Part shown: piece by piece, positions 1 through 7,111 of the stretch
How the letters are laid out: every line of letters begins with the position of its first letter
How positions within the stretch are numbered: the stretch's first letter is position 1
DNA from: an uncultured Flavobacteriales bacterium
GTDB taxonomy: Bacteria; Bacteroidota; Bacteroidia; Palsa-965
Assembly: GCA_946478675.1 (NCBI GenBank)
Contig: CAMLEF010000202.1
Span: forward strand, 1 to 8,417
Direction of reading: 5' to 3'
DNA length: 8,417 nucleotides
The notes under the pieces: generated by a model
Database searches by the model: none
Told to the model about the DNA's origin: nothing
What the model saw: only the letters and a program-made list of their open reading frames with translations
Position numbers and translations under genes: made by a program

Positions 1-651
1 CATCGTGTCAAGGTCGCCGGCTTTGTTATTGGGAACCGAAGGCGAAAATCCCTGCACGTACAGGCTGTCGTAATTGCCGGGCCGACCGAGCCATCCGCGC
101 AGCGACGCATCGAGGTAATGCGATCCGAAATACGGCAGGCTGTAAAACGGAAGCGTTTTGAAATAACGGAAGCGTTTATCGTGGTACTGCAAACCTTCGT
201 ACAGCTTTTCATTGGAGAGAAACGCGAAATACCGCGGGAACTGGTAAACCGTATCGGGGCTGTCGGCGAAGGTGTGAAGGTCGAGGTTGAGCACGACGTA
301 TTTCGGCGGCGGACTGTTTTCAAGATAAGCTTCGAAGCCGGCGCGGATGAACGGCATCGTGGCGCCCATCATGCCGATGTTGAACGATTGCAGCTTCGTA
401 GCGGAATCGATGACCGGCGGGTAGAACTGGCATTCGGCGCGCGAAGAACCGATGAATAAAATATCGCAGGGATGCGGCTCGAGAAAAGTTTCGCGCAGCT
501 TGGCGAATTCCCCGGTTTTGTTGCGGCGCAGCCCGGCGTATTCGAATTCACGAACGAGGTACAGCAATGCGATGGCGGCGATAACGTAAGCAAACCTCGA
601 AGGTTTTATAAACCTTCGAGGTTTGCTTACGTTATCGAAATTCTCCTTCAT
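1..651 (-). CDS. SGNH-hydrolase-like protein paired with MBOAT, C-terminus beyond window
   Basis: The frame is open for 217 codons from an ATG at 651 to the window edge, so the C-terminus is missing. Residues 1-19 form a basic tail. Residues 20-33 (FAYVIAAIALLYLV) form one membrane segment, and the rest should lie outside the cytoplasm. DILFIGSSR at 63-71 fits SGNH block I, with Ser70 as candidate nucleophile. NIGMMG (91-96) and VVLNLD (119-124) fit later blocks. The catalytic Asp/His block would lie off the window. Known for the family: such AlgJ/DltD-like partners work with an MBOAT protein to move acyl groups onto extracellular polymers. The MBOAT gene directly upstream ends in TGATG, its stop sharing one base with this start, which suggests translational coupling. 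No Shine-Dalgarno is visible. A perfect palindrome encodes residues 6-24. The acylated polymer cannot be read from sequence. Confidence 0.8.
   Translation of the reverse strand, partial: MKENFDNVSKPRRFIKPSRFAYVIAAIALLYLVREFEYAGLRRNKTGEFAKLRETFLEPHPCDILFIGSSRAECQFYPPVIDSATKLQSFNIGMMGATMPFIRAGFEAYLENSPPPKYVVLNLDLHTFADSPDTVYQFPRYFAFLSNEKLYEGLQYHDKRFRYFKTLPFYSLPYFGSHYLDASLRGWLGRPGNYDSLYVQGFSPSVPNNKAGDLDTM
579..637. repeat. Perfect 28-bp-arm palindrome inside the SGNH gene
   Basis: The arms at 579-606 and 610-637 are exact reverse complements around a 3-base loop (TAT). The inner part reads AACCTCGAAGGTTT on one side and AAACCTTCGAGGTT on the other. It starts 12 bases after the SGNH start codon and is read in frame as residues 6-24, the basic cytoplasmic tail before the membrane helix. 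There is no T-tract, so it is not a standard terminator. I recall hairpins with this core in intergenic DNA of other Bacteroidota, but this was not checked. An inserted palindromic element kept in frame is the likely explanation. Confidence 0.9.
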
Positions 652-2108: not shown

Positions 2109-2131
2109 GCGGGGTGCGAATTACTAAGGGG

Positions 2132-2277
2132 CGAATTACGAATCAGTACGAATATACGAATGGCGATAGCAGGTATGTTCCGGCTTAATGATGATGGTGG
2201 GTCACGAATTACGAATCAGTACGAATATACGAATGGCGATAGCAGGTATGTTCCGGCTTAATGATGATGGCGGGTCA
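2132..2277. repeat. 73-bp tandem duplication
   Basis: The copies at 2132-2204 and 2205-2277 differ at one base (T2198 versus C2271). Each consists of the 30-base CGAAT element plus 43 bases that include GGCGATAGCAGGTATGTTCC and TAATGATGATGG. A third CGAAT core begins at 2278 but then leads into a different tail. The near-identity points to a recent duplication. Confidence 0.95.
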
Positions 2278-2421
2278 CGAATTACGAATCAGTACGAATA
2301 TACGAATCGCGCTTGCCGACGCGCCTTTGGAAATTTCATTAGCAGTAAATGAAAGGAGGGTGCGAATTCCGAATCAATACGAATATCCGAATCGCGCTTG
2401 CTGACGCGCCTTGGAATTCCC

Positions 2422-2451
2422 ATTCGTATATTCGCAGTGATTCGTAATTCG
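2422..2451 (-). promoter_or_regulatory. Inverted CGAAT element at the pssA1 start, possible promoter
   Basis: This inverted copy ends six bases (TAACCC) before the pssA1 ATG. On the plus strand it contains TATATTCG at 2427-2434, one base off the Bacteroidota -7 box TAnnTTTG and 23 bases before the start codon. No well-spaced -33 TTG is visible; the nearest, at 2411-2413, is 13 bases upstream. The promoter role is inference; the repeat copy is directly visible. Confidence 0.35.
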
Positions 2452-2457
2452 TAACCC

Positions 2458-3321
2458 ATGAAACTCTTCACTCTCCCCAACGTCATTACACTGCTGAACC
2501 TGCTCTGCGGCTGTCTCGCGATCGTTTGTGCGTTCAACGGCGAGCTCATGTGGAGCGCTTACCTCGTCGGTATTGCGGCGGTGCTGGATTTTCTCGATGG
2601 TTTCGTGGCGCGCGCGCTGAAGCAGTATTCACCGATCGGGAAGGATTTGGATTCGCTGGCGGATATGGTGACGTTCGGTGTGGTGCCGGGCGTGGTGATG
2701 TTTCATTTGATCCGTTGTTCCATTTCTCCGCTGGAGTATTCGTTTCCGCATAATTCTGAAGGATATTGGAAGATGGCGATGCTGATGCCTGCACCTTCGG
2801 GAGCGATCACGTATCTTCCTTATGTCGCGTTCCTGATCCCGCTTTTTTCTGCGCTGCGCCTGGCGAAATTCAACAACGATACGCGTCAAACGGATTCTTT
2901 CATTGGCGTGCCGACGCCTGCGAATTCCATTTTCGTGGTTTCGCTGGTGCTGATCGGTAATCATCACTTCGGCTATTTTTCCAGCACCAATCCTTTCGCG
3001 GAAATCGGGGAGTATGTAGCCGTCTCCATGAAAACGGATGTGCATACGACTGCGTCTGCCGGTTGGCTCGATCTGCTGCCGTATATCCTTTGCGGGCTTA
3101 CGCTGGTATTGTCCTTTCTTCTCATCTCCGAGATCCCGCTGTTCGCTTTGAAAGTAAAAGGTTTCGGCTGGAAAGGAAACGAGATCCGTTACATTTTCCT
3201 GGCGCTCTCACTGGTGATGCTCGTGCTGCTGAAATTCATTGCGCTGCCGCTGATCATCGTGCTGTATGTGTTAATGAGCGTGGTGAATAACCTGATGAGG
3301 AGAAAAGAGAAGCAGCTGTAA
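2458..3321 (+). CDS. pssA: CDP-diacylglycerol-serine O-phosphatidyltransferase, copy 1
   Basis: The 287-residue membrane protein carries the full CDP-alcohol phosphatidyltransferase signature DG-x2-AR-x8-G-x3-D-x3-D: Asp47, Gly48, Ala51, Arg52, Gly61, Asp65, Asp69. These residues bind metal and CDP-diacylglycerol. The family attaches serine to the lipid, the first step to phosphatidylethanolamine. LPNVITLLNLLCGCLA at the N-terminus and the ALRLAKFN motif near 138 are typical of PssA. Further membrane helices follow, ending in VLYVLMSVVNNLMRRKE. The protein is longer than the roughly 230-250 residues I expect. Extra sequence lies between VVMFHLIR and the next helix (about residues 85-115) and around 170-200. 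The ATG at 2458 begins exactly at the conserved N-terminus. The gene ends in a double stop (TAATAA). A second, diverged copy follows directly. Other CDP-alcohols cannot be fully excluded, but serine is the best call. Confidence 0.92.
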   Translation: MKLFTLPNVITLLNLLCGCLAIVCAFNGELMWSAYLVGIAAVLDFLDGFVARALKQYSPIGKDLDSLADMVTFGVVPGVVMFHLIRCSISPLEYSFPHNSEGYWKMAMLMPAPSGAITYLPYVAFLIPLFSALRLAKFNNDTRQTDSFIGVPTPANSIFVVSLVLIGNHHFGYFSSTNPFAEIGEYVAVSMKTDVHTTASAGWLDLLPYILCGLTLVLSFLLISEIPLFALKVKGFGWKGNEIRYIFLALSLVMLVLLKFIALPLIIVLYVLMSVVNNLMRRKEKQL

Positions 3322-3334
3322 TAAACGAGTAGTA

Positions 3335-3459
3335 GGGTTACGAATTACGAATGGCTGCGATTACCGCGAATAAAGAATCTGGAATTTGAACGCAGCAATC
3401 GCGATGCAGGGTTGGGTAGTGCGATTCGTATATTCGTAACCATTCGTAATTCGTAACCC
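3335..3459. repeat. CGAAT-element inverted repeat between the two pssA genes
   Basis: An exact 18-base inverted repeat (GGGTTACGAATTACGAAT) occupies 3335-3352 and 3442-3459 and encloses 89 bases. The right side is a full inverted CGAAT element (3424-3453) ending shortly before the pssA2 ATG. The left side is a half copy. TATATTCG lies at 3429-3436, 29 bases before the start codon. The enclosed bases show no coding frame or recognised motif. In RNA this would form a long-loop hairpin at the gene junction. Confidence 0.85.
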
Positions 3460-3465
3460 GCTAGC

Positions 3466-4344
3466 ATGTTCAACGTTCCCAACCTTTTCTCCCTCGGAAA
3501 TTTACTTTGCGGCTGCATCGCGACATTGACGGTGATCGAAGGCAATTTGTTTCCGGCTGCATTTCTCGTGATGCTGGCTTCGGTGTTTGATTTTCTCGAC
3601 GGGTTTGCGGCGCGCGGGTTGAAGCAGGGATCGCCGATGGGGAAGGAGCTGGATTCGCTCGCGGACATGGTGACGTTTGGCGTGGTGCCGGGCATGGTGA
3701 TGTTCCAGCTGATCCGGATGGGTATCAACATTCACGGACCGGAAAACTACGATGAGGCCACGCGTGATTGCCTGCCGTATGCGGGGTTTTTCATTCCGCT
3801 GTTCTCCGCGCTCCGGCTGGCGCATTTCAATGTCGATACGAAGCAATCCACTTCGTTCATCGGTTTGCCTACGCTGGCGAATGCGCTTTTGATCACCGGG
3901 ATTCCGCTGGCGATCGGGTTGACGCAGCAGGATTTTGCAGCGACCAGCCATGGCGGCTTTCATGTGGAGCCGGGACAGGAGAACGATCTCGTTTATCTCA
4001 TGATCAGCCTGCATCCGACGGACCTGTATTCCATTGCCGCGACGAATCTTTCCGGCAATCAGATTCCGTGGTTTTACGATTTGCCTGCGCTGGTGCTAAT
4101 GCCTTTCTGGATGGCGGGATTGTCGGCGCTGATGTCGATGCTGCTGATCTCGAAGCTGCCGATGTTCTCGTTCAAGGTGAAGAATGTGAAGTGGAAAGGC
4201 AACGAGGTGCGTTATGTTTTTCTCGCGGGGGCGGTGTTGCTGGCGGTGTTGTTGCAGCTGAAAGCGTTGTCGGTGATTATTGTATTGTACGTACTGATGA
4301 GCCTGGTCAATTCTATGGTTGGCAGGAAAGAGCAGCGGCAGTAG
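3466..4344 (+). CDS. pssA: CDP-diacylglycerol-serine O-phosphatidyltransferase, copy 2
   Basis: The 292-residue paralogue of the preceding gene has an intact catalytic signature: Asp45, Gly46, Ala49, Arg50, Gly59, Asp63, Asp67. The two proteins share long blocks by eye, such as DSLADMVTFGVVPG, PLFSALRLA and VIIVLYVLMS or close variants. They differ in the loops; this copy has a long hydrophilic insertion around residues 160-195 (HGGFHVEPGQEND and onward). The ATG at 3466 sits at the conserved N-terminus, 12 bases after the inverted CGAAT copy, without a Shine-Dalgarno. Stops are TAG then TAA. Both catalytic sites are complete, so this is not a decayed duplicate. It may differ in substrate (serine versus another alcohol) or in regulation. 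Confidence 0.9.
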   Translation: MFNVPNLFSLGNLLCGCIATLTVIEGNLFPAAFLVMLASVFDFLDGFAARGLKQGSPMGKELDSLADMVTFGVVPGMVMFQLIRMGINIHGPENYDEATRDCLPYAGFFIPLFSALRLAHFNVDTKQSTSFIGLPTLANALLITGIPLAIGLTQQDFAATSHGGFHVEPGQENDLVYLMISLHPTDLYSIAATNLSGNQIPWFYDLPALVLMPFWMAGLSALMSMLLISKLPMFSFKVKNVKWKGNEVRYVFLAGAVLLAVLLQLKALSVIIVLYVLMSLVNSMVGRKEQRQ

Positions 4345-4740
4345 TAAACGGGGCGGGTGCGAATTACGAATCACTACGAATATACGAATCGCGCTTGCTG
4401 ACGCACCTTTGGAGTTTCGCAGTAAACGGGAGGCAGGGTGCGAATTACGAATCACTACGAATATACGAATCGCACTTGCCAACCCTCCTGGGAATTCCTG
4501 TTTGGCATTCGCAGCTGTTAGCAGTAAACGGGAGGCAGGGTGCGAATTAACGAATCAATACGAATATACGAATCGCACTTGCCGACCCTCCTGGGAATTC
4601 CTGTTTGGCATTCGCAACTGTTAGCAGTAAAGGGGAGGCAGGGTGCGAATTAGGAATCAATACGAATATCCGAATCGCGCTTGCCGGCCCTCAACGGAAT
4701 TCCCATTCGTATATTCGTAAATATTCGTAATTCGTAACCC
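4345..4740. repeat. CGAAT-word repeat array downstream of pssA2
   Basis: Direct copies of the 30-base element start at 4360, 4441, 4543 (one extra A) and 4646, and an inverted copy occupies 4705-4734 followed by TAACCC. The spacing grows from 81 to about 102 bases because the later units carry GGGAATTCCTGTTTGGCATT and GTTAGCAGTAAA. Each direct copy is preceded by GGGTG and followed by CGCGCTTGC or CGCACTTGC. No gene is present; an apparent reading frame with repeating ELRITTNIRIA peptides is just translated repeat. Confidence 0.92.
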
Positions 4741-4742
4741 TT

Positions 4743-4750
4743 CATCTTTG
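4743..4750 (+). promoter_or_regulatory. Possible -7 promoter box for the RNA element
   Basis: CATCTTTG matches the Bacteroidota -7 consensus TAnnTTTG except for its first base. It would start transcription near 4757, just before the conserved-looking RNA element. The -33 region offers only TTCG at 4724-4727, so support is weak. Confidence 0.35.
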
Positions 4751-4756
4751 AAATTG

Positions 4757-4862
4757 CTTCCACTTCCTGGTAGCCCCGATTGAGCGGAAAGCCCGGACGC
4801 AGGAGGACTTGCAGCGAAAGCGGGACCGTACCCCGCTGGTGAGCACCACCGCCGCTGCTCCT
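4757..4862 (+). ncRNA. Structured RNA element upstream of purS, possibly Flavo-1-like
   Basis: This unique, non-repeat, non-coding stretch has GGTAGCCCCGATTGAGCGG at 4769-4787 and GCAGCGAAAGCGGGACC at 4811-4827. I recall the pattern TAGCCCCGATTGA, then GCGAAAGCGGGA, as a frequent intergenic element of Bacteroidota that resembles the published Flavo-1 RNA motif. The assignment is from memory and unverified. Possible pairings are CCCG 4775-4778 with CGGG 4821-4824, a GC-GAAA-GC tetraloop hairpin at 4814-4821 (an alternative fold, because C4821 is shared), TGGT 4837-4840 with ACCA 4845-4848, and GCAGC 4811-4815 with GCTGC 4854-4858. It lies between a -7-like box and the purS promoter, so it could be a free small RNA or a 5' leader. 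Confidence 0.5.
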
Positions 4863-4917
4863 TATCAAAAGTTTTACACCACTGTATTGTACAGGCGCTG
4901 AGGCTTCGCTAAATGCT

Positions 4918-4925
4918 TATTTTTG
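4918..4925 (+). promoter_or_regulatory. purS promoter, -7 box TATTTTTG
   Basis: TATTTTTG is an exact match to the Bacteroidota -7 consensus TAnnTTTG. Transcription would begin near 4931, leaving a leader of about 20 bases before the purS ATG at 4952. The -33 region is poor (CTG at 4898-4900, 17 bases upstream). The box excludes the upstream in-frame ATG at 4913 as the start. Confidence 0.55.
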
Positions 4926-4951
4926 CACCGCATTTCAATCCTCTCTCCAAC

Positions 4952-5203
4952 ATGAAATTCAAAGCAGAAATCGACGTGATGCCGCTCAAGGCGTTGCTGG
5001 ATCCGCAAGGAAAAGCCGTTACCGGAAGCATGAAGAACCTCGGCCTGCCCGAGATCGAAAACGTGCGCATCGGCAAGCACATTACGCTCGAGATCGAAGC
5101 TCCGTCGAAAGACGCGGCGCATGCGAAGGTGGACGAGGCCTGCAAAAAGCTTCTCGCCAACCAGATCATGGAATTCTACGAATTCGAGATCACGGAAGCG
5201 TAA
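4952..5203 (+). CDS. purS: Phosphoribosylformylglycinamidine synthase subunit PurS
   Basis: The 83-residue protein has standard PurS length. It begins MKFKAEIDVMPLKALLDPQGKAV, with the family's LDPQGKAV segment at residues 14-21. ENVRIGKHITLEIE follows at 31-44, and NQIMEFYEFEI near the end matches the usual C-terminal NPVIE.Y-type motif. PurS is the small subunit that bridges PurL and PurQ in FGAM synthase, which converts FGAR, glutamine and ATP to FGAM in cytoplasmic purine synthesis. The start at 4952 is preferred over the in-frame ATG at 4913, because it gives the normal N-terminus and the -7 box lies between the two. purL and purQ are not in the window. The gene stands alone with its own promoter. 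Confidence 0.95.
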   Translation: MKFKAEIDVMPLKALLDPQGKAVTGSMKNLGLPEIENVRIGKHITLEIEAPSKDAAHAKVDEACKKLLANQIMEFYEFEITEA

Positions 5204-5204
5204 T

Positions 5205-5377
5205 TCCGCTACTCAGCATGACAGGTGCGGAATTAAAGGTTCCGCTACCAGCATGACAGGCGTTGGATTCAAGGTGCCGCTACTCAGCATGACAGGCGTT
5301 GAATGAGTCGAATGCTCCGCTACCTGGCATGGCAGGCATGAAATTCTGCAGAACGCTTCGCTACCTGGCGCGACAGG
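5205..5377. repeat. Five degenerate copies of a CCGCTAC...GACAGG repeat
   Basis: Copies of about 21 bases lie at 5205-5225, 5241-5260, 5276-5296, 5316-5336 and 5357-5377, spaced 35-41 bases apart. The first three read CCGCTACTCAGCATGACAGG or lack two bases. The last two read CCGCTACCTGGCATGGCAGG and CGCTACCTGGCGCGACAGG, which gain CCTG/CAGG self-complementarity. A related unit (CGGCTACTCAGCCTGAC, 6041-6057) lies downstream of the next gene. Intervening bases are similar (GCGTTGGATT, GCGTTGAATG), so this is a decayed tandem array and not a CRISPR. Confidence 0.85.
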
Positions 5378-5393
5378 TGTCAAACATTAACCG

Positions 5394-6017
5394 ATGAAAT
5401 TCTACCGATACCCGCTGGCCCTTATTGCGTATGCGCTGCTGTTCATTTTCCTGCTCGCGTGGGGGTGGCACCAGCTGGCGGGGCAGTCGATGGCGACGTA
5501 CTGGTATTATTTTCCTGCGGGCGCCGGTGTTTTCCTGCTGATTTCTTTTTTGCTTTCAAAGCTGAAGCTGCACTGGGAGCTCGACGTGCTGCTGCAGGTG
5601 ATGGTGGTGCTGGCGCCGGTGCTCTGGTACGTGAACCAGCGCGAACCGTACAAGCGGCCGGTGTATATTTTCGTGACGAACCCGGTGTACAGCGGCAAGC
5701 TGACGATCCGCTTCAACCACGACAAGAACGCGAAAACGAACGCGAACAATCCTTCCGATACGCTGTACTTTAAATTCGACGAAGACGGCAGCATCCTGCT
5801 CAACGAAGACGGCGAATACGTGCGTGAATGCATGCGGAAACGTTTGTATACGGTCTTCCCGGACCAATCACGCAAGCTGGTCCCGTTCGCGGATAAAAAT
5901 CATCTTCCTTCCGATACGCTGACGAAAGTGCTCGTTGAGGATACGCTGATCGCGGAAAAAGGAAGAATGAAGGAGCTGCGTTACCGCATTGATTTTCCGC
6001 AGAAATTGAAACGTTAG
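5394..6017 (+). CDS. Membrane protein of unknown function, three helices and a soluble tail
   Basis: I do not recognise this 207-residue protein with confidence. Hydrophobic segments lie at about 7-25 (LALIAYALLFIFLLAWGWH), 38-58 and 63-80 (DVLLQVMVVLAPVLWYV). A hydrophilic C-terminal region of about 125 residues begins RPVYIFVTNPVYSGKLTIRFN. The tail alternates short beta-like runs with acidic turns (FKFDEDGSILLNEDGEY) and faintly recalls DUF6843-type domains, which I could not verify. The ATG at 5394 gives a short basic N-terminus (MKFYRYP). It follows a degenerate repeat array with no visible promoter. Its last codons lie inside the left arm of the convergent terminator hairpin. Confidence 0.75.
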   Translation: MKFYRYPLALIAYALLFIFLLAWGWHQLAGQSMATYWYYFPAGAGVFLLISFLLSKLKLHWELDVLLQVMVVLAPVLWYVNQREPYKRPVYIFVTNPVYSGKLTIRFNHDKNAKTNANNPSDTLYFKFDEDGSILLNEDGEYVRECMRKRLYTVFPDQSRKLVPFADKNHLPSDTLTKVLVEDTLIAEKGRMKELRYRIDFPQKLKR

Positions 6018-6073
6018 GCAGCCAGGCTTCGATACGCCTCCGGCTACTCAGCCTGACTACCTAACGTTTCAAT
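6005..6073. terminator. Nested hairpin between convergent genes
   Basis: The arms 6005-6021 (ATTGAAACGTTAGGCAG) and 6057-6073 are inverted with one mismatch. Inside, CAGGCT at 6023-6028 pairs with AGCCTG at 6050-6055, and GCC 6036-6038 with GGC 6042-6044. The left arm contains the stop of the plus-strand gene (TAG, 6015-6017). The position between convergent genes and the near symmetry suggest a bidirectional terminator. A T-rich run exists only further right (6080-6084). The inner GATACGCCTCCGGCTACTC belongs to the repeat family seen at 5205-5377. Confidence 0.65.
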
Positions 6074-6097
6074 TGGGGATTTTTCAATTGAAACGTT
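6063..6097. terminator. Second hairpin sharing an arm with 6005-6073
   Basis: AACGTTTCAATTG (6063-6075) and CAATTGAAACGTT (6085-6097) are perfect inverted 13-base arms around a 9-base loop, GGGATTTTT. The left arm is also the right arm of the 6005-6073 hairpin, so the two folds exclude each other. The stop of the minus-strand DUF2459-type gene (6084-6086) lies in this hairpin. Confidence 0.65.
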
Positions 6098-6491
6098 TTG
6101 CTGTAATCAGCAGATAACTGCTGATCACCTGACGTGACGCTTTCACGGCGGTGCTCGCCTTGAGATCGGCCCAGGTCGGCGTTTCGATGTAAAAGCCTTT
6201 GTCGCCCCAGCCGAAGCTCGCGTAAGTGTAGCTGCTGTCGGCGTTGCGCACGTCGCTGTACGGAAACAGTTTCGTCCAGTCTTCGATGTCGTTTTTCGCA
6301 GGCACGGCAATATCCGTATGCACGCCGTTCGAGATCACCGCGATCGTGACGCCGTTCCCGTCCTGCCGGAAATCGTCGTTCACCGAAATGCAGCACGCGA
6401 TACCCGCAACGATAAAATACAAACCGATAAAAATGAAAATACCCGCCACAATGCGTAGCAGGTATTTTATCGTTTTGCGAACGTGCTTCAT
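6084..6491 (-). CDS. DUF2459/TIGR02117-type protein, C-terminally truncated
   Basis: The 135-residue protein has a basic N-terminus (MKHVRKTIKYLLR), a membrane segment at about 12-36 and then ISNGVHTDIAVPAKNDIEDW. YASFGWGDKGFYIETPTWADLKASTAVKA (91-119) is the core of the DUF2459/TIGR02117 family, whose biochemical role is unknown. Family members as I know them run about 200-240 residues and continue after this motif into a region ending with Cys/Asn/Trp-rich motifs. Here the frame changes character at about residue 120 and ends SRQVISSYLLITAKRFN, encoded by two hairpin sequences. Roughly the last 85-100 residues are missing, so the product may be non-functional. The ATG at 6491 starts the natural N-terminus. 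The secreted-protein gene lies 68 bases upstream on the same strand. Confidence 0.75.
   Translation of the reverse strand: MKHVRKTIKYLLRIVAGIFIFIGLYFIVAGIACCISVNDDFRQDGNGVTIAVISNGVHTDIAVPAKNDIEDWTKLFPYSDVRNADSSYTYASFGWGDKGFYIETPTWADLKASTAVKASRQVISSYLLITAKRFN
6103..6128 (-). repeat. Hairpin in the 3' end of the DUF2459-type gene
   Basis: On the coding strand GTGATCAGCAG and CTGCTGATTAC form an 11-base stem around TTAT. The one imperfect pair is a G-U in the coding-strand RNA but A-C on the other strand, so the fold favours the gene's sense. It encodes VISSYLLIT and marks the place where the protein departs from its family. Confidence 0.65.
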
Positions 6492-6497
6492 CCGGTT

Positions 6498-6539
6498 GGC
6501 AGTTGGCAGTCATTTTTCCATTGCAGACTGCCGACTGCT
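6498..6539. repeat. GGCAGTT word-repeat hairpin
   Basis: GGCAGTTGGCAGTC (6498-6511) and GACTGCCGACTGCT (6526-6539) are inverted arms with two mismatches around a 14-base loop that includes ATTTTTCC. It fills most of the 68-base gap between the two minus-strand genes. It may attenuate readthrough from the upstream gene. GGCAGTTGGCAGT strings are another short-word repeat type in this window. Confidence 0.65.
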
Positions 6540-6559
6540 TACGCGGGAACGTGTGCCGA

Positions 6560-7027
6560 CTAATCTTCCGGCGGTTCCGGCGCTGACGAATAACCGACTT
6601 TTTTCGGCTTAAGCGTTTTCGGGAAAATGACGTTGACGAGCGCTTCGTCCATCGTGAGCAGCGTAGCGGAGATGCCGTTGGTGATGGTCATCGGCACTTC
6701 GTATTTCAGCTTCGGCTTGAAGGTTTCGTAGGTGCCGTCCTGCAGCTTGCGGTACATGGCGATGATCTTGCCGTCTTTCACATCTACCTTCCCGGCGTAA
6801 CATTGCGCGTCGGCGCCGTTGCGCACGGTGATGATGATGTCATCGTACGTGCCGTCTTTCACTTCTTCTGCGCCGCGTTCTTCGAATTTCTGTTCCCATT
6901 TCGTGTAACAGTTCGAAGGCGCCGCGGTGGTGTTGCTGGCCGTTGTCGTGGCGGGCTTCGTGGCAGTCTGCGCATAACCGGCCATCGTAATGCATACGGC
7001 GATGAGGCAGGGGTAAAGTTTTTTCAT
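6560..7027 (-). CDS. Small secreted or periplasmic protein of unknown function
   Basis: The 155-residue protein starts with a clear signal peptide, MKKLYPCLIAVCITMAGYAQT, with likely cleavage after Ala19. A Thr/Ala-rich linker follows (residues 20-37, TATKPATTTASNTTAAPS). The domain from about 38 begins NCYTKWEQKFEERGAEEVKDG, then DDIIITVRNGADAQCYAGKVDVKDGKI. Two cysteines (39 and 75) could form a disulfide. The C-terminus is Lys/Pro-rich, ending APEPPED. I do not recognise the domain. The ATG at 7027 is chosen over a longer frame from 7144 because of the signal peptide and because a -7 box at 7067-7074 lies between them. No Shine-Dalgarno is visible. The DUF2459-type gene follows and may be co-transcribed through the intervening hairpin. 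Confidence 0.75.
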   Translation of the reverse strand: MKKLYPCLIAVCITMAGYAQTATKPATTTASNTTAAPSNCYTKWEQKFEERGAEEVKDGTYDDIIITVRNGADAQCYAGKVDVKDGKIIAMYRKLQDGTYETFKPKLKYEVPMTITNGISATLLTMDEALVNVIFPKTLKPKKVGYSSAPEPPED

Positions 7028-7066
7028 GAATGGATTGGTGTTTGGTGGGAGCCGGGGCGTCCACGA

Positions 7067-7074
7067 TAAAGATA
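7067..7074 (-). promoter_or_regulatory. -7 box for the secreted-protein gene
   Basis: On the minus strand TATCTTTA matches TAnnTTTG in all but its last base and lies 39 bases before the ATG at 7027. About 20 bases upstream is CTTCG, a weak -33. A diverged CGAAT element sits immediately upstream at 7082-7111. Confidence 0.45.
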
Positions 7075-7081
7075 ACAAAAA

Positions 7082-7111
7082 CGATTTACGAAGAGGGACG
7101 AATCTGCGAAT
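7082..7111. repeat. Diverged CGAAT element upstream of the secreted-protein gene
   Basis: Reading plus, the words CGATT, CGAAG, CGAAT, CGAAT occur with spacers of exactly 2, 5 and 3 bases, as in the intact copies at 2132-4734; 23 of 30 bases agree. Relative to the minus-strand gene it is in the same orientation as the inverted copies next to pssA1 and pssA2. ATTCGTAACG at 7153-7162 may be a remnant of its opposite partner. The rest of 7028-7204 shows only the -7 box. Confidence 0.6.

Follow-up and report, generated by a model that had tools for sequence, protein, structure and literature searches.

The stretch of DNA analysed here (the window; 8,417 nt of contig CAMLEF010000202.1, assembly GCA_946478675.1, from an uncultured Flavobacteriales bacterium of the phylum Bacteroidota) carries, between positions 2,132 and 7,111, a pattern of four short words repeated at fixed distances, CGAAT-2-CGAAT-5-CGAAT-3-CGAAT, and the question arises of what kind of element this pattern represents. 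That the pattern is real, as the first-pass annotation had proposed, is evident from 12 window matches (up to three mismatches), 9 of them exact, compared with a mean of 0.01 in the shuffled window, 12 being reached in none of 200 shuffles. The exact copies start at 2132, 2205, 2278, 2363, 4360 and 4441 on the plus strand and at 2422, 3424 and 4705 on the minus strand. Of the eight direct copies counted previously, these six are thus exact, whereas the copy at 4646 has GGAAT as its second word and the spacing of the one at 4543–4573 is broken because its first spacer has 3 bases (a one-base insertion); the diverged copy listed last among the repeats in Table 1 does retain the spacing, as had been stated. 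A degenerate direct arm at 3338–3370 (21 of 29 specified positions), the partner of the inverted arm at 3424–3453, had been overlooked. The tandem units of the window measure 73 bp (98% matches) and 103 bp (92% matches), and local tandem duplication accounts for part of the copy number there. The two neighbouring PssA-like proteins share 46% identity with each other.

Table 1 Repeat arms, full palindromic elements and neighbouring genes in the window
Feature	Positions	Strand	Remarks
Direct arm, first unit of 73-bp tandem array	2128..2161	+	four words exact; array 2132–2311
Direct arm, second 73-bp unit	2201..2234	+	exact words; tandem array
Direct arm, opening the third, partial 73-bp unit	2274..2307	+	exact words; tandem array
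Full palindromic element (left arm 2363–2392, loop, inverted right arm 2422–2451)	2357..2457	+	reaches up to the first PssA-like gene, whose ATG is at 2458; RNA fold −39.7 kcal/mol, z −5.6
CDP-alcohol phosphatidyltransferase gene (PssA-like)	2458..3321	+	PF01066, E 8.9e-19
Full palindromic element, 125 nt, between both PssA-like genes	3335..3459	+	left arm degenerate in words 3–4, right arm 3424–3453 exact; upstream stop ends at 3321, following ATG at 3466; RNA fold −51.3 kcal/mol, z −5.8
Second CDP-alcohol phosphatidyltransferase gene (PssA-like)	3466..4344	+	PF01066, E 1.3e-18
Direct arm	4356..4389	+	first CGAAT follows the second PssA-like gene's stop codon by 15 bp
Tandem array of ~103 bp units	4419..4703	+	direct arms 4441–4470, 4543–4573, 4646–4675
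Full palindromic element (left arm 4646–4675, inverted right arm 4705–4734)	4640..4740	+	~210 bp upstream of the likely purS ATG (4952); RNA fold −37.9 kcal/mol, z −5.4
Diverged single arm	7082..7111	+	2 mismatches, spacing retained; partner arm not detected

Concerning the word itself, per-position conservation in 126 contexts from other genomes (126 of 131 matches, duplicates and contig ends having been removed) indicates that the heptamer TACGAAT is a better statement of it than CGAAT, since conservation extends to the A in word 2 and to the TA in words 3 and 4 (1.25–1.73 bits at positions 7, 16, 17, 24 and 25, none of them imposed by the search pattern); word 2 itself begins with T or A. 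The arm, 33–36 nt long, uses TACGAAT four times with gaps of 0, 3 and 1, i.e. with words starting at 0, 7, 17 and 25. The earlier view that words are held while spacers vary therefore applies to the three- and one-base gaps—the central triplet (0.13–0.27 bits) and the base preceding the last TA (0.30 bits) being nearly free in these contexts—but not to the other presumed spacer bases, i.e. the conserved TA of the words. The code was also seen from anchors of two words only: in genome G546, a relative of G012 chosen for its 27 copies, a further word occurred at offset 5 in 18 of 28 anchors and at offset 13 in 16 of 28, with 5 each at offsets 6 and 14; in G548, offsets 5 and 13 were found in 3/6 and offsets 6 and 14 in 2/6; and in the rpsC loci, sampled by kinship only, offsets 5 and 13 were found in 6/10. 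Counting against the code, 46 two-word anchors in L001–L118 that miss its full form showed the usual offsets only 8 times and the shifted ones 6 times. Taken together, conservation and two-word anchors support the proposed multi-site recognition element with held words and some free spacers.

The 30-base unit is, however, not free-standing as had been supposed: where a partner was found, it is one arm of an inverted-repeat hairpin. The full element, 73–192 bp long, consists of an arm, a loop of variable length and an inverted arm; 42 such non-coding elements with inverted 33-nt arms were collected (two of them sharing one right arm), and their terminal inverted repeat reaches ~3 nt beyond the arm. 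An inverted partner (up to 4 mismatches, within 150 bp) accompanies 26 of 124 arms on their inner side and none of 118 on their outer side. It should be noted that many arms have no clear partner. Five full elements fold as RNA 5.4–8.6 standard deviations below shuffles, the central spacer remaining unpaired in the predicted folds. Within an element, the central triplets of both arms agree in 36 of 126 comparisons (29%), compared with 30% between different elements, as expected for binding arrays and not for a stem selected for pairing throughout. The words agree in 87% within and 85% between elements; for the single-base gap (60 vs 32%), the first base of word 2 (90 vs 57%) and the outermost base (79 vs 35%) the clearly higher agreement within elements is consistent with subfamilies, though also with a degree of selection for pairing.

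The hairpin is not confined to the window. Exact arms (a 20-base code) occur in at least 118 DNA stretches of the genome_contigs set, labelled mainly Patescibacteria and Bacteroidota; the hairpin is seen in at least two phyla of uncultured bacteria that are only distantly related, and 46 genomes reached via 48 loci (selected for having a match, among the matches listed) hold 1–69 copies each at up to three mismatches, the reversed-pattern control giving 0 in all 46. Its carriage is nevertheless patchy, with 11 of 239 Patescibacteria genomes and 1 of 247 from Bacteroidota, the latter being the window's own genome. The breadth may be inflated by misbinned contigs, one stretch labelled Nanoarchaeota (L097) carrying a bacterial NusA gene. 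No exact match was found in viral_contigs, nor any match among phages searched with the window's element, and the open-access literature yielded no description of the four-word repeat. The idea that the repeat arose locally, as a satellite or by slippage, and that similar sequences elsewhere are coincidental, an idea to which the tandem units of the window lend some credit, is refuted by the exact stretches, the empty control and the insertions with matching flanks at other junctions described below, and its probability is negligible.

With regard to placement, the copies are far from randomly distributed: of 113 arms (140 arms less 21 inside predicted ORFs and 6 without an outer gene), 57% have their outer edge no more than 12 bp from a gene end, compared with 10.5% of random intergenic points, and the 36 tandem gaps that hold full elements have a median of 17 nt left over, compared with 167, which demonstrates a strong bias to short intergenic gaps. 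With copies outside the window and non-random placement, neither of the outcomes that the first-pass annotation would have taken as a refutation was observed. The ORF caller was crude and several arm-containing ORFs are doubtful, yet three arms do lie in one 1266-nt ORF of L085. Five elements are found between ribosomal genes in the ribosomal operon of L095, and one between ruvC and ruvA in L060 (genes assigned by Pfam).

The behaviour of individual junctions was followed at the rpsC loci of 30 of the 33 genomes with an RpsC match, these being the loci obtained and read. Genome G012 has an element at both the rplV/rpsC and the rpsC/rplP junction, while G544 and G548, whose RpsC is 99% identical, have gaps of 21 and 30 nt without it; since the same two junctions are empty in such close relatives, the element inserts. 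Further filled and empty pairs with matching flanks are L220:9856–9971 versus L233 and L224:3086–3199 versus L282. The cleanest pairs show ~83–92% DNA identity, and small gains or losses at the edges are therefore indistinguishable from later drift. All these pairs come from other loci, the second PssA of the window having only one partial match in 395 Bacteroidota genomes (E 1e-40). The filled and empty junctions support the mobile non-autonomous element that the first-pass annotation had listed among its options, and the repeat is probably a non-autonomous, intercistronic mobile hairpin of the MITE or REPIN kind.

The same junctions bear on a recombination site like the attC of integrons, bounding gene cassettes. 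An attC is a folded site located between genes, in which boxes pair, spacers stay unpaired and the loop varies, and the element resembles it as an imperfect palindrome with a variable loop and an unpaired central spacer, positioned between a stop and the following start. The relatives of G012, however, retain identical flanking genes with and without it, so that the element moves and not the genes; in contrast to attC, the hairpin itself is the inserted unit. Its neighbours, moreover, include ribosomal-protein and ruv genes, and an attC-like role appears very improbable.

Alternatively, the hairpin could be a functional intercistronic RNA (an mRNA-processing signal, stabiliser or attenuator) selected at operon junctions, with mobility secondary. 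Its location between essential, probably co-transcribed genes, the stability of the five folds, the matching of some gap and edge positions between the arms of one element and the presence, by eye, of related or different hairpins at the same rpsC junctions in L191, L192, L196, L199, L200 and L211 would agree with this, whereas the absence from the junctions of the closest relatives, the unmatched central triplet and the patchy carriage would not. Over the element, neither the window nor seven loci gave an Rfam match that reached the gathering score of its family (only three tRNAs were found in the seven loci), and at E up to 1 the element at 4640–4740 gave just a weak microRNA match far below its gathering score. 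Between 2100 and 4960, intrinsic terminators (a G+C-rich stem followed by a T run) gave 4 matches, none within an element, compared with 3.9 in shuffles, and no sigma-70-like site was seen; the latter scan is a weak test, because Bacteroidota promoters differ. An RNA function as the primary cause is, on balance, unlikely.

No transposase was found for the hairpin, and among four Pfam families searched in carriers none was common to all (pairs of more widely spaced arms were listed in L001–L118 and the window); IS110-type, RVT_1 and rve make poor candidates for a common mobiliser, the numbers of carriers having them being just 5, 9 and 9 out of 26. The comparison of G546 with G548, which has 3 copies, left 311 of 991 ORFs absent or less than 40% covered in the latter, too many to sort; two of the G546 proteins absent or poorly covered there (DDE-like and serine-recombinase-like, by eye) have flanks without such arms, also by eye. 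No clear excess of target-site duplications over shuffled flanks was seen around 49 full elements at eight boundary offsets (k 2–7).

Another possibility is that the arm is a REP belonging to a RAYT (Y1_Tnp) transposase and the hairpin an ordinary REPIN. In favour of this, target-site duplication is lacking as in IS200/IS605, the two inverted arms look REPIN-like, and Y1_Tnp is present in 26 of 32 chosen carriers and, within one Patescibacteria sample, in 9 of 11 pattern carriers versus 105 of 228 non-carriers (Fisher p 0.028). The 6 carriers lacking Y1_Tnp include G024 with 30 copies, although these genomes are possibly incomplete. A REP is, however, itself a palindrome, whereas four single arms folded as DNA do no better than shuffles (−0.5 to −1.5 kcal/mol, z +1.2 to −0.3). 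Of 20 Y1 genes read with their flanks, just 1 has arms within 250 bp (on its downstream side), and 2 of 30 Y1 loci of the chosen carriers contain arms; most of the 20 genes are bordered by other short palindromes, judged by eye. The rarity of arms near Y1 genes and the non-palindromic single arms weaken a RAYT-cognate REP to the point of making it quite unlikely.

The probable mobile hairpin of MITE or REPIN kind may be compared with described families. The bacterial MITEs Correia, ERIC and BrickBuilt, according to a review (PMC10969869), are short, non-coding, mostly intergenic and multi-copy, with terminal inverted repeats and stem-loop transcripts, some lying immediately before genes or within 3′ untranslated regions, and target-site direct repeats are expected in the younger ones. 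Compared with these features, the element agrees in being short and non-coding, with terminal inverted repeats, many copies, insertion polymorphism and a predicted stem-loop transcript, but differs by the target-site duplication not seen and arms built of four spaced heptamers; a parent IS was not identified among the four Pfam families searched. REPs, REPINs and TIRtrons, as portrayed in PMC3733652, are small extragenic palindromic repeats near or touching ORFs, also as inverted unit pairs, and REP termini are reported to provide neighbouring genes with a stop codon; for the CGTC superfamily no transposase is known, and tagged superfamilies are reported from 8 phyla, so that phylum breadth alone is not new. 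Two inverted units forming one mobile hairpin close to ORFs are shared with REPINs, whereas the four-word, non-palindromic arm and its scarcity beside the Y1 transposase genes read are not.

As to mechanism, the words may be the binding sites of one putative recombinase or transposase whose gene lies elsewhere in the cell and which, since target-site duplication was not seen, possibly acts on single-stranded DNA in folded form. Copies would survive mainly where both flanking genes stay readable, i.e. between stop and start codons in operons, and would be transcribed there as long bulged hairpins. It may tentatively be suggested that the hairpin represents an undescribed class, its multi-word code (0, 7, 17, 25; drifting words TACGAAT, TACGAAA, TACTAAT and TACAAAT) being read by a putative recombinase that prefers stop/start junctions, and that it has spread between the ultrasmall Patescibacteria and the Bacteroidota with which they may live, remodelling intercistronic stretches of essential operons inside a genus or family. 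If the mobile-hairpin reading is right, both phyla would share an element that looks selfish and whose recognition code can be read, inserting between ribosomal-protein genes without breaking them and being gained or lost between species with 99% identical RpsC; it would allow DNA exchange among uncultured bacteria to be traced, make the protein that reads the words a clear search target and provide a natural experiment on the effect of a long hairpin between two co-transcribed genes.

Heptameric repeats as such are known from cyanobacteria (STRR, in tandem). The search of plasmids with the element of G012 gave one record, a Dolichospermum plasmid with five tandem copies of ATTCGTA; this plain heptamer run differs from the spaced arms, and L315 has no match to the spaced pattern tried.

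The repeat of the window belongs to a genuine family of mobile hairpins that lie between cistrons. The spaced four-word repeat claimed by the first-pass annotation, CGAAT-2-CGAAT-5-CGAAT-3-CGAAT, is borne out, with 12 matches in the window at ≤3 mismatches, nine of them exact, against 0.01 in shuffled window sequence. Direct and inverted copies (arms) are paired into three full elements, listed below with the other repeats and structures seen, and the direct arm is multiplied by two tandem arrays with units of 73 and 103 bp. The products encoded in the window are PurS, an MBOAT protein, a DUF2459 protein and two CDP-alcohol phosphatidyltransferases sharing 46% identity. For the second of these transferases, every listed relative with a stated organism comes from Bacteroidia or Bacteroidota/Bacteroidetes.

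Full elements and other repeats or structures in the window
Feature	Position	Strand	Remarks
Inverted repeat, perfect	579-637		28-nt arms, 3-base loop; just past the MBOAT gene, on its 3' side
Full element	2357-2457		direct and inverted copy paired; runs right up to the ATG of the first transferase gene
Full element	3335-3459		direct and inverted copy paired; occupies most of the gap separating the two transferase genes
Full element	4640-4740		direct and inverted copy paired
Flavo-1-like RNA	4768-4831	+	upstream of purS; 33.9 bits, E 2.7e-5, under the gathering score of 42
Second repeat, CCGCTACTCAGCATGACAGG-type units	5206-5384		units every 35-41 nt; occupies the space from purS to the following ORF
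Inverted repeat	6004-6074		at the end of ORF 5394-6017; 25-nt arms, 92% complementary

Concerning the placement, 57% of the 113 arms lying outside predicted ORFs, each with a gene on its outer side, are found ≤12 bp from the end of that gene, a placement well away from random: points chosen at random in the intergenic DNA of these loci give 10.5% (distances are approximate and the ORF caller simple). The outer median distance is 11 bp for adjoining start codons (68 cases) and 7 bp for adjoining stop codons (45 cases). Among the 47 full palindromes with genes on both sides, 36 are positioned between co-directional genes, in gaps where the sequence not taken up by the element has a median length of 17 nt, versus 167 for random insertion. 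One locus (L095) carries five elements amid the genes for L14, S17, L16, S3, S19, L2 and L23, another (L060) a single one in the ruvC-ruvA gap. The absence from most ORFs is accounted for by the purging of gene-breaking insertions; purging alone does not explain why short gaps within operons are favoured over long intergenic stretches, a bias that reflects either target choice or selection. It should be pointed out that at L085:569-747 three arms are located within a single 1266-nt ORF.

Around rpsC, the sequence was compared among 30 genomes belonging to the same family as G012, a pattern-carrying genome; the ribosomal genes there are given their usual names, like genes of L095 having been tested against Pfam. 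G012 has an element at both rplV|rpsC and rpsC|rplP, whereas its relatives G544 and G548 (RpsC 99% identical) exhibit 21- and 30-nt gaps at these junctions, without the element; in G546 (RpsC also 99%) the first junction contains a different copy and the second is empty. By our reading of the alignment, the G012 insertion coincided with a shortening of RpsC by four residues at its C-terminus, relative to G548. In further pairs both flanks align around a 110-118 bp insert (L220:9856-9971, L224:3086-3199 and L216:1839-1956), some flank-aligned pairs having bases gained or missing next to the element; no target-site duplication was found in 49 full elements. The suggestion that the element is mobile is thus upheld by the filled and empty junctions among G012 and these close relatives.

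By eye, other members of the G012 family also have hairpins at these rpsC junctions, made up of related words or of different ones. Those of L191, L192, L199, L200 and L211 have drifted words (TACGAAA, TACTAAT, TACAAAT and others), and in L191 and L199 a largely similar hairpin is present at both junctions. In G012, hairpins of other families occupy junctions at which G548 has only a short gap: hairpin-like inserts of the CCCCCACCACTTT type (L220:11677-11767), the CACCCCCACACCAAA type (L218:4045-4156) and the CACAGAATTACACAGAAAC type (L220:4183-4267), where G548 has 3, 9 and 17 bases, respectively. Given the filled and empty relatives and these hairpins of other families, the junctions look like sites where such elements come and go. 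In L201, the heptamer CGCATAA is repeated five times in tandem immediately after the rpsC stop codon.

With regard to its spread, the element is not confined to the window, since an exact scan found the 20-base code (the four words at fixed spacing) in at least 118 stretches of the genome collection, and none in viral_contigs. Counted from record titles, the assemblies among the matches listed comprise at least 38 labelled as Patescibacteria groups, at least 23 Bacteroidota, at least two Omnitrophota, at least one Nanoarchaeota and at least seven without a label; the Nanoarchaeota-labelled contig (L097) is probably a misbinned bacterial one, because it encodes a bacterial NusA. In 46 genomes reached via 48 matching loci, i.e. 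chosen for having a match, there are 1 to 69 copies per genome at ≤3 mismatches, the reversed-pattern control giving 0 copies in 46/46. Evenly drawn samples matched, at ≤2 mismatches, in 11/239 Patescibacteria (two of the 11 known as carriers beforehand) and 1/247 Bacteroidota, the latter being the window's own source; the element is therefore rare and patchy, and often multi-copy in its carriers. That a single sequence family occurs in Patescibacteria as well as Bacteroidota is striking, although REP superfamilies as a class are reported from 8 phyla (PMC3733652).

Conservation was measured over 126 contexts at the positions left free by the search. Conservation is seen at the A of word 2 and at the TA of both word 3 and word 4 (1.25-1.73 bits; positions 7, 16, 17, 24 and 25), and is weaker at the TA preceding word 1 (0.9 and 0.8 bits). 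Word 2 begins with T or A, and the central triplet is almost free, as is the base ahead of the last TA, so that the arm is four times TACGAAT with gaps of 0, 3 and 1. The view of the first-pass annotation that words are held while spacers vary consequently stands for the triplet and that single base, but not for the conserved TA/A positions. Two-word anchors were used to reduce the circularity of the code search. G546 is related to G012 but was picked for high copy number; of its 28 anchors, 18 have the third word where the code predicts it and 16 the fourth, and five with both words one base farther along represent a minor variant whose centre has four bases. Of the 6 anchors of G548, 3 have both words at the usual offsets and 2 have the shifted pair. 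Among the anchors of the rpsC loci, which were chosen on kinship alone, 6/10 have the usual offset pair and 3/10 no further word, and the 46 anchors missing the full code in the stretches with exact arms (L001-L118) include 8 with the usual pair, 6 with the shifted one and 12 with no further word.

Over 42 elements, the two arms of one element agree in 29% at the central-triplet positions versus 30% across elements, and in 87% versus 85% at the word positions. This unmatched triplet argues for putative binding words over a stem in which pairing is under selection along the whole length; the higher agreement within than between elements at the one-base gap (60% vs 32%), the first base of word 2 (90% vs 57%) and the outermost base (79% vs 35%) fits subfamilies or some pairing. 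Strong RNA folds are predicted for five full elements, single arms folding no better than shuffles in 4/4 cases, and no terminator-like site was found inside the elements of the window.

No mobiliser was found among the families searched in carriers (Y1_Tnp, IS110-type, RVT_1 and rve). Y1_Tnp is present in 26/32 carriers and, in the 239-genome Patescibacteria sample, in 9/11 carriers versus 105/228 non-carriers (p 0.028); just one of the 20 Y1_Tnp genes read with flanks has an arm ≤250 bp away, on one side only. The IS110-type, RVT_1 and rve families occur in 5, 9 and 9 of 26 carriers, respectively. By eye, most of the divergent Y1 transposase genes (L294-L313) have their own gene-specific short palindromes at one or both ends, and a palindrome CCTACGCGAATAA...TTATTCGCGTAGG adjoins a serine-recombinase-like gene of G546, downstream of L343:9483-10913.

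The closest in kind are MITEs and REPINs; the present family differs from the former in having no target-site duplication, and from the latter in that its arms are neither palindromic nor, with the one exception, at the Y1 transposase genes read. The four-word arm is the new point of this family, of which searches of an open-access library brought up no description. In the Dolichospermum plasmid pAfl69 (L315:1511-1545), ATTCGTA is repeated five times in tandem within an annotated CDS.
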